This document shows positions 12,932 to 14,620 of a stretch of DNA of 38,616 bases, in pieces. The position numbers and the translations under genes were made by a program. Each line of letters begins with the position of its first letter. Positions within the stretch are counted from its first letter, which is position 1. The notes beneath the pieces were generated by a model. It ran no database searches. It saw only the letters and a program-made list of their open reading frames with translations, and was not told the DNA's origin. This DNA is from Syntrophobacterales bacterium (GTDB lineage: Bacteria > Desulfobacterota > Syntrophobacteria > Syntrophobacterales > Thermodesulforhabdaceae): assembly GCA_026992355.1 (NCBI GenBank), contig JALXAE010000278.1, positions 1 through 38,616 on the forward strand, given 5' to 3'.

Positions 12932-12967
12932 AACGGAGGTCTTGCTGAAGACCTCCGTTTTAATTTT
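12932..12967 (+). terminator. Intrinsic terminator after YeiH transporter
   Basis: A perfect 12-bp stem (AACGGAGGTCTT / AAGACCTCCGTT) with a GCTG loop is followed by TTTTAATTTT. It ends the small-protein/transporter unit and separates it from the convergent mgtE gene. Confidence 0.9.
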
Positions 12968-12983
12968 AAAAAGCATGATTAGG

Positions 12984-14363
12984 TTAAATGCCTAATACAA
13001 TCTTACAAATGGAAAAGTAAACTAGCATACCCATTATATCCATCAAAGTGGACAAGGTGGGACCTGACACAATAGCTGGATCTAATTTTAACGCTGCAGC
13101 CAATAAAGGCAAAACTCCTCCCAAAAGAGAAGCCACTATTACTTGAGTCGCAAAGGCCAAACCAATTGCCAACCCAACCGTTGAAAGAGAAAAACCTGAT
13201 GGAACCTCAGCTCCAGAAGTAAAGTAAGTGATTTTAAACCATAACAGCAACCCTAGAACCAGGGCCAGTAAAAGGCTCACTTTAAATTCTTTAAATATAA
13301 CCTTTAAAAAATCCTTTAAAGAAATCTCCCTTAGCGCCAAAGCCCTGATAACCATAATTGCCGACTGACTGCCAGTATTTCCTCCTGTTGCGGTCATCAT
13401 TGGCATATAAAAGGCCAGAATAAGAAATTGATTTAAGACATCCTCAAAATGCCTGATTATCATTCCTGAAAACAACTCCAGACCAGCAAGTCCTATTACC
13501 CAGGGTGCACGTTTTCTAAAGTATTCCAGAGTGGACAACTTCATATAAACACCAGCTTCGTGAGGCCCACCTATTGCTGTAAACTTTTCTATGTCTTCCG
13601 TGTTCTCCTGGGTAATAACATCAACGGCATCATCATGAGTAATAATGCCCACCAGAACATTGTCACCATTTACAATGGGAAGTGCCAGAAGGTCATATTT
13701 CTGAATCATTCTAGCAACATCTTCCTGGTCATCTGTAACCCTGGCAAAAATGACATCTTTATGCATTACATCACGAACTAACTTGTGTGGCGGAGCAAGG
13801 ATTAAATCTTTCAAGGAAACCAATCCAATGAGGCGCCGTTTTTCGTCCACTACATAAGCGTAATAAATGGTCTCTTTATCTGGAGCTTCTAATCTTATAC
13901 GTTCGAGTGCTTCTCGAACTGTAATATCCGGAGGGAGCGCCACATAGTCGGAAGTCATCACCGCTCCAGCAGTCCCTTCCGGATAGGATGCCAGTTTCCG
14001 CAAGTCTTCTCTTTCAGCTTTAGCAAGAGCAGGCAAAATCAGGTCCTGTTTTTCTGGAGGAAATCTCTTGAACAGATCCACTCGATCATCTGGAGGCATG
14101 TCAGATATAAGCTGAGCTAATTCATCTCTTGAAAGAGTCTCCGCTATATCCAATTGCACGTCTTCGTCGAAATTACTGAAAATTTCTGCTCTTAACGAAG
14201 GTTCCAGGGATCTTAGAATACGCCATATTTCTTTTGGGCTAAGGGTTGCCAGAAAATCTGCTACCGCTTTAGGATGCATAAAACGGCAAAAGTCTTGAAT
14301 TGTAGTAACATCGTTCTTGGACAAGAGTTCTCGCAACTCAGGAGCAAGTAGAGGATTTCTCAT
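12984..14363 (-). CDS. mgtE: Magnesium transporter MgtE
   Basis: A 459-residue MgtE-type magnesium channel. It has a helical MgtE_N domain (about 20-125), two CBS domains (about 135-255) that sense cytosolic magnesium, and five C-terminal membrane helices containing the pore signature PMMTATGGNTGSQSA. It imports magnesium across the inner membrane. ATG 14363 has a perfect GGAGGTGA site 7 nt upstream. Longer in-frame starts (for example TTG 14429) would run through that site and lack a ribosome site. The leader upstream can form alternative RNA structures that hide or expose the ribosome site (14364-14620), so translation is probably regulated. Confidence 0.95.
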   Translation of the reverse strand: MRNPLLAPELRELLSKNDVTTIQDFCRFMHPKAVADFLATLSPKEIWRILRSLEPSLRAEIFSNFDEDVQLDIAETLSRDELAQLISDMPPDDRVDLFKRFPPEKQDLILPALAKAEREDLRKLASYPEGTAGAVMTSDYVALPPDITVREALERIRLEAPDKETIYYAYVVDEKRRLIGLVSLKDLILAPPHKLVRDVMHKDVIFARVTDDQEDVARMIQKYDLLALPIVNGDNVLVGIITHDDAVDVITQENTEDIEKFTAIGGPHEAGVYMKLSTLEYFRKRAPWVIGLAGLELFSGMIIRHFEDVLNQFLILAFYMPMMTATGGNTGSQSAIMVIRALALREISLKDFLKVIFKEFKVSLLLALVLGLLLWFKITYFTSGAEVPSGFSLSTVGLAIGLAFATQVIVASLLGGVLPLLAAALKLDPAIVSGPTLSTLMDIMGMLVYFSICKIVLGI

Positions 14364-14620
14364 GATAAGCTCACCTCCCAACTCCAGCCGCACTGCACAC
14401 GGAATGCGGCCGGAGGTGAGCTTAGACAAGGAGGGCTTCTAGAAAGCTCACAACGCCTGCCGCATTCCGTATAACATGCGGCCCGGAAAAAACTTCTCTT
14501 AGTTTTGAACAACCGAATGGTGCAGAGACATCCTGTAACCCTGCACCGAAAAGCTTGCTACTGTCAGAGTCATTCATATCCTTTTAGTTCCCCTAAAAAC
14601 TTAGGAACTAACAGGCACCC
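14364..14620 (-). promoter_or_regulatory. Structured mgtE leader, candidate riboswitch or attenuator
   Basis: The mgtE leader holds several exactly complementary segments. The segment at 14412-14423 (mRNA AAGCTCACCTCC) pairs over 12 bp with the ribosome site at 14367-14378 (mRNA GGAGGTGAGCTT). It also pairs over 8 bp with 14444-14451 (mRNA GTGAGCTT). Segment 14459-14470 pairs over 12 bp with 14399-14410, or over 7 bp with 14476-14482. The two folds exclude each other and would switch translation off or on. Two further hairpins lie upstream (14519-14547 and 14584-14611) and could belong to a sensing domain. The ligand is unknown. Magnesium is inferred from the gene, and I cannot match the sequence to the M-box consensus. 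Nothing recognisable lies in 14621-14778. Confidence 0.7.

Follow-up and report, generated by a model that had tools for sequence, protein, structure and literature searches.

A candidate leader-peptide attenuator with an acidic start upstream of mgtE and mgtA in Desulfobacterota and other bacteria

The leader of mgtE in the stretch of DNA analysed here, 38,616 nucleotides from a Syntrophobacterales genome (hereafter the window), appears to be a translational attenuator that is run by a leader peptide and depends on Mg2+ through an early failure of translation on the acidic start of that peptide, a reading to which we assign a probability of about two in three. The presence of an RNA switch combined with an upstream open reading frame (uORF) is well supported by the sequence comparisons, which also argue for a selected peptide N-terminus, for two alternative folds and for a Mg2+ regulon comprising mgtE and mgtA. 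We infer, in addition, ribosome drop-off on the peptide, the response to Mg2+ and the direction of control. Few bacterial Mg2+ channels are as common as MgtE, and the well-known case of leader control over it is the M-box, a direct Mg2+ aptamer. A leader peptide acting on both mgtE and mgtA far beyond the enterobacteria would show that the use of ribosome stability to sense Mg2+ has widely arisen or spread.

The proposed device has four strands in the mRNA, namely F (strand 1), E with A (strand 2), B with D (strand 3) and D' with C, which holds the Shine-Dalgarno (SD) sequence of mgtE (strand 4), the first two being located inside the uORF. Were the whole uORF translated, the ribosome would clear F, E and A, the B:C and D:D' pairings would form and the mgtE ribosome site would be hidden (OFF). 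Should translation fail early, E and A (and F) would capture D and B (and D'), and the SD would stay accessible (ON). The proposed site of such failure is the acidic start MNDSDSS, on which a ribosome would become unstable at low Mg2+ by intrinsic ribosome destabilisation, a process demonstrated for MgtL of E. coli and MgtQ of Salmonella.

Table 1. Features of the mgtE leader and gene, with positions in the window
Feature	Position	Strand	Evidence or proposed role
Upstream ORF, leader peptide MNDSDSSKLFGAGLQDVSAPFGCSKLREVFSGPHVIRNAAGVVSFLEALLV (MNDSDSSKLF...), 51 codons	14422..14577	-	ATG 14577, stop TAA 14424-14422
Acidic N-terminal motif MNDSDSS, proposed Mg2+-sensitive translation-abort element	14557..14577	-	Synonymous/nonsynonymous test; acidic enrichment; sole copy of the pattern in the genome
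Strand F (GCCGCAT)	14476..14482	-	Pairs D' (ON) or E (OFF)
Strand E (ACGGAATGCGGC)	14459..14470	-	Pairs D (ON); relatives align at its GCGG core
Strand A (GTGAGCTT)	14444..14451	-	SD-region mimic; pairs B in the ON fold
Strand B (AAGCTCACCTCC)	14412..14423	-	Anti-SD; pairs A (ON) or C (OFF)
Strand D (GCCGCATTCCGT)	14399..14410	-	Pairs E (ON) or D' (OFF)
Strand D' (AGTGCGGC)	14387..14394	-	Pairs F (ON) or D (OFF)
Strand C (GGAGGTGAGCTT)	14367..14378	-	mgtE Shine-Dalgarno region; masked by B in the OFF fold
mgtE, Mg2+ channel/transporter, 459 aa, regulated gene	12984..14363	-	Pfam MgtE, MgtE_N and CBS; NCBIfam TIGR00400 equivalog

The mgtE leader in the window

The assignment of the regulated gene to MgtE, already made in a preliminary description of this DNA, is borne out by a score of 388.9 bits against the TIGR00400 equivalog, above its cut-off of 232.75. 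The same description had drawn six leader strands, F, E, D, A, B and C, whose coordinates and letters all proved exact, and the four pairings among them are perfect complements (7 bp for F:E, 12 bp for E:D, 8 bp for A:B and 12 bp for B:C). The 151-nt leader folds at -72.6 kcal/mol, compared with -48.8 +/- 4.4 for dinucleotide shuffles (z -5.4; none of 200 as good), and its structure of minimum free energy is a single long hairpin made of F:D', E:D and A:B. This structure is the ON fold described previously, lengthened by the pairing of F with 14394-14387. What had been overlooked is the uORF, of which F, E and A are coding sequence; its stop codon overlaps strand B and lies 58 nt before mgtE. 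Translation of this reading frame in the window is presumed here.

The leader had been taken for a complete translational switch. Mutually exclusive folds that would govern access to the ribosome site are upheld by covariation and by complementarity beyond that of shuffled sequences, but the idea of a self-contained RNA that binds a ligand does not hold up, as there is no Rfam match and no conserved aptamer and the 5' half consists of a translated-looking uORF. The Rfam search that had been advised, for the M-box and other riboswitches, gave zero matches to the window leader at the gathering threshold, and below it chance matches only, with no M-box (RF00380) among them; no conserved aptamer-like core was found among the leaders either. 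A stand-alone translational riboswitch, in which the RNA would bind Mg2+ or another ligand and flip between the folds with the ORF being incidental, would still account for two real, covarying folds and for the high stability of the ON fold in the window, and a different strong candidate associated with mgtE, SRC-65-1, has been described from Thioalkalivibrio (PMC11109978). Against it stand the lack of a Rfam match and the pattern of conservation, which, besides the switching strands, comprises the amino-acid sequence at the uORF start and the position of the stop instead of an aptamer-like core, while the stretch from the uORF start to F varies freely in length among the leaders. We regard such a riboswitch as improbable.

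The leader is single-copy in its own genome, and a repeat element was thus rejected. At the other end of the gene, between the convergent ends of mgtE and of a gene for a 533-aa membrane protein, lies a likely terminator (window 12932-12959), formed by a 12-bp hairpin and the T-rich tail after it.

Conservation of the upstream open reading frame

A total of 39 leaders were recovered, 33 of them before mgtE and six before mgtA, which encodes a Mg2+ P-type ATPase unrelated to MgtE. The 33 mgtE leaders come from the phylum of the window, where the relatives span many families, and from a genome labelled FCB, CSSED10-310 and an unassigned metagenome-assembled genome; viral contigs were also searched and contained no relatives of the leader. 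Common to the leaders are an acidic peptide start (M-x-D-S-D-G/S-S), a stop just ahead of the anti-SD strand and an SD that is hidden by a hairpin. The short ORF is present in each leader of the close MgtE relatives, and no comparable ORF was found at that position among the examined loci of distant MgtE proteins (39% identity or less) of the same phylum. The uORFs have 16-62 codons, and in nearly all 39 leaders the distance from the stop to the start of the importer, or to where the SD strand ends, is 41-75 nt, with the stop just 5' of strand B. Among 32 mgtE leaders this distance to mgtE is 43-75 nt in all except L034 (140 nt), with the stop often 5-9 nt before B. When an ATG uORF with a stop 40-76 nt upstream and at least two acidic residues at positions 2-6 was demanded, 24 of the 32 mgtE leaders passed, compared with one of 126 other genes at the same loci, and this sole background pass is itself a Clostridial mgtE (L017).

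The starts seen include MNDSDSS, MSDSDSS, MSDSDGS, MDDDDGP, MDPDGS, MDDSSS and MSEPGSS, among others, L007 being the clearest exception to the acidic character. Acidic residues make up 34% of residues 2-7 and 10% from residue 13 on, and at least two are found at positions 2-7 in 33 of the 39 leaders. Among codons 2-8 of 15 gap-free leaders, 175 of the single-base differences are synonymous and 87 nonsynonymous, where 45 and 217 would be expected. Past codon 8 no synonymous bias was found in the alignable pairs (for L021-L059, 3 and 13 changes, with 2.9 and 13.1 expected). Residues 2-8 are thus under purifying selection and the remaining ones not; the first residues are selected as a peptide, while the rest resembles a path for the ribosome over the RNA strands.

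Serine codons at residues 5-10 (14565-14548 in the window) are AGT in 52 of 60 cases, compared with 12 of 137 elsewhere in the uORFs of the 39 leaders. This preference is not explained by a purely charge-based sensor and goes beyond what the amino-acid motif requires, as would be expected if the same attenuator design answered to another cue, such as the charging of Ser-, Asp- or Gly-tRNA, slow decoding of AGU or a specific arrest peptide. The genes regulated are, however, Mg2+ importers and not amino-acid genes, the acidic residues are conserved as much as serine, and the motif is placed a long way 5' of F, which is not where amino-acid attenuators have their control codons. A cue of this kind accordingly has little probability.

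Covariation of the two folds

Both mutually exclusive folds covary across relatives, as the preliminary description had proposed checking. An SD-hiding hairpin after the uORF stop is possible in all 32 mgtE leaders, with energies from -17 to -39 kcal/mol. In an alignment of 17 leaders made from sequence only, B:C is 91.5% paired and has four double-changed pairs, compared with 0.7 in shuffles (1/500), and A:B is 91.2% paired (no shuffle of 500 as high), with covariation reached in 13/500. A second alignment of 15 leaders includes those of mgtA; divergent leaders were excluded from the alignments. Here 94.1% of the OFF fold (B:C with D:D') is paired, its double-changed pairs numbering 10 where shuffles give 3.4 (0/500), and the ON fold (A:B with F:D') is 88.9% paired (0/500), with covariation at 1/500. 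When the partners are slid by one to three columns, pairing falls to 24-49% for both folds. Furthermore, the end of the uORF pairs with the RNA between stop and SD better than codon-shuffled uORFs do, at p<0.05 in 13 of 32 leaders (combined p 3e-9). The covariation shuffles leave relatedness in, and these p-values overstate the case because the shuffles ignore it.

Association with mgtA

The peptide-start pattern ATGRVYGAYNNNGAYRGYAGY was searched on its own in 395 genomes of the phylum of the window and gave 34 matches, compared with eight for a reversed-pattern control; in the genome of the window it matches exactly once, at the uORF start. Twelve of the 34 are uORFs of the same design, and all of these precede mgtE (six already known) or mgtA (six: L077, L078, L086, L091, L092 and L093). 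Most of the remaining matches sit in longer frames, and four others in short ORFs were checked and attributed to chance. One further mgtE leader (L106) came, together with chance matches, from a second pattern of higher specificity. The ATPase assignment was made by a family scan of L091, L086, L092 and L094, a longer copy of the L077 locus, in which the full-length protein scores 1072 bits against TIGR01524, the magnesium-translocating P-type ATPase (cut-off 611), and the truncated copies also have it as their best match; for L078 and L093 it rests on the translations.

Structure was not used in finding the six mgtA leaders and L106, and yet the SD hairpin is present in all seven (p<=0.01 for each), with a pairing between the uORF and the downstream RNA that exceeds that of shuffled uORFs (combined p 2e-5). 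Both regulated genes are thus Mg2+ importers (TIGR00400 for mgtE and TIGR01524 for mgtA). The suggestion that Mg2+ is the signal, made earlier from mgtE, gains from this, since the leader is found before two Mg2+ importers of unrelated families and, within what was examined, before nothing else, which points to Mg2+ as the probable cue.

Ribosome masking and folding

In the unmasked window leader, the region after the stop is expected to form 36 pairs with the uORF and 0.0 with the SD. When a ribosome on F, E and A is imitated by masking these strands, the SD (C:B) acquires 10.7 expected pairs and the uORF keeps 0.2. Four relatives (L006, L020, L025 and L058) open cleanly in this comparison, like the window, and in most others the SD hairpin prevails at equilibrium for all uORF states. 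Translation of the uORF would set the fold, a prediction of the folding model that is clear in the window and partial elsewhere. Since the OFF hairpin wins at equilibrium in these other relatives, their ON state would have to be kinetic and fixed before the SD is transcribed; its greater stability in most relatives likewise makes a ribosome on the uORF the more likely driver, probably co-transcriptionally. Equilibrium accessibility of the SD was set aside as a general test of the switch, since in most relatives it tells little, given the dominance of the OFF hairpin and the other pairings open to the SD.

A ribosome could also act in the opposite sense, by translational coupling, in which ending at the uORF stop would cover or melt B and open the mgtE site, so that uORF translation would mean ON. 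In nearly all leaders B is overlapped by the stop or follows closely after it. With the stop region masked, C becomes free in L004 and to some extent in L021 and L033, and translation of Salmonella mgtB needs the mgtQ start codon (PMC8092293). Coupling nevertheless leaves strands F and A unexplained, though they covary with D' and B, and, combined with a uORF destabilised by lack of Mg2+, it would switch off the importer under Mg2+ scarcity. It seems unlikely, if a little less so than the two alternatives weighed above.

Comparison with known magnesium leaders

The attenuator proposed here has its closest parallels in the enterobacteria. Opening of the sequestered mgtB ribosome site via alternative stem-loops requires residues Asp2 and Glu5 of MgtQ in Salmonella (PMC8092293). 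As seen in or proposed for the window, a short ORF with acidic residues near its start precedes a Mg2+ importer, the importer SD is sequestered by alternative stem-loops, control is translational and uORF and importer are inversely related. MgtQ differs in being an 8-aa ORF between mgtC and mgtB of enterobacteria, with no evident sequence similarity, and in that a ribosome on strand 1 favours the 2:3 pairing, whereas the acidic start of the window leader lies well upstream of strand F.

MgtL of mgtA in E. coli and Salmonella (PMC11282234, PMC11552253) likewise has an acidic start, MEPDP, and its full translation represses the importer. As recounted in PMC11282234, citing Chadani 2017, ribosomes drop off at the EPDP start of E. 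coli MgtL at low Mg2+. By analogy, the acidic start of the present leaders is likely an abort element. Its motif has fewer prolines than EPDP and less dense acid, and di-acidic starts are not always ribosome-destabilising (PMC11282234); an MgtL-like start, MDPDGS, is found in L028, L029 and L049. Unlike the device proposed for the window, MgtL acts on Rho-dependent transcription termination and not through an SD hairpin, and RNA, phylum and peptide are all different. CorL of corA (PMC11552253) shares with the proposed device the inverse relation between uORF translation and importer expression and the alternative RNA folds, but is Rho-dependent and has fewer acidic residues.

Among leaders of MgtE-type importers, the M-box (ykoK) before Bacillus mgtE is comparable in exerting leader control and differs in that the window leader has no Rfam match. 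The mgtE motif SRC-65-1 (PMC11109978) is the nearest published mgtE leader, a structured leader that includes SD and start codon; it differs, in a comparison of descriptions, by being reported from Thioalkalivibrio only, by being a strong riboswitch candidate and by a description that names no uORF.

No report of the present leader was found in the literature searched, which covered few subscription journals, and its novelty is provisional. As judged from the comparisons, the device would follow the logic of MgtL and MgtQ with unrelated sequence, before mgtE and mgtA in other phyla, and by its design would control access to the SD. More tentatively, and at somewhat less than even odds, the leaders may form a widespread, unreported class of Mg2+-sensing leader peptides (M-x-D-S-D-G-S, with fixed AGU serines), unrelated to the enterobacterial ones, in which ribosome destabilisation is the sensor and which has moved as a module between mgtE and mgtA and across phyla. 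If this were true, ribosome drop-off would be a general bacterial Mg2+ sensor, and the roughly 39 natural variants offer material for testing which peptide starts drop ribosomes at low Mg2+.

Variant leaders

Where strand A is recognisable, it keeps the same codon frame in nearly every leader, and in some relatives, such as L024, L052 and L057, no clear strand A is seen. The exception in frame is L020, in which the acidic-start frame differs from the strand-A frame relative to the window and L004; this is either a frameshift of the uORF or an assembly error. In L060 (G525), a relative of mgtE has an in-frame TAA and is apparently a broken copy. The Clostridial locus L017 (2360-2505) holds a tandem pair of mgtE genes with an intergenic uORF, MEGCDGCSSINILK..., whose stop lies 60 nt before the second mgtE, and this is possibly the same device in Firmicutes.

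In four mgtA loci (L077, L078, L086 and L091), a short ORF is located between the SD hairpin and mgtA. The one in L091 (MKNPFIVPGFRSLIETWTPSDLRFFLE...) is similar to the N-terminus of MgtE (p=0.001 in a comparison with shuffles), which suggests that the leader moved from mgtE to mgtA along with the mgtE start. In L092 and L093 the hairpin and the SD-like strand C are intact and are followed by ATT or ACA in place of ATG, with the start of mgtA further downstream, and the element may act differently there.
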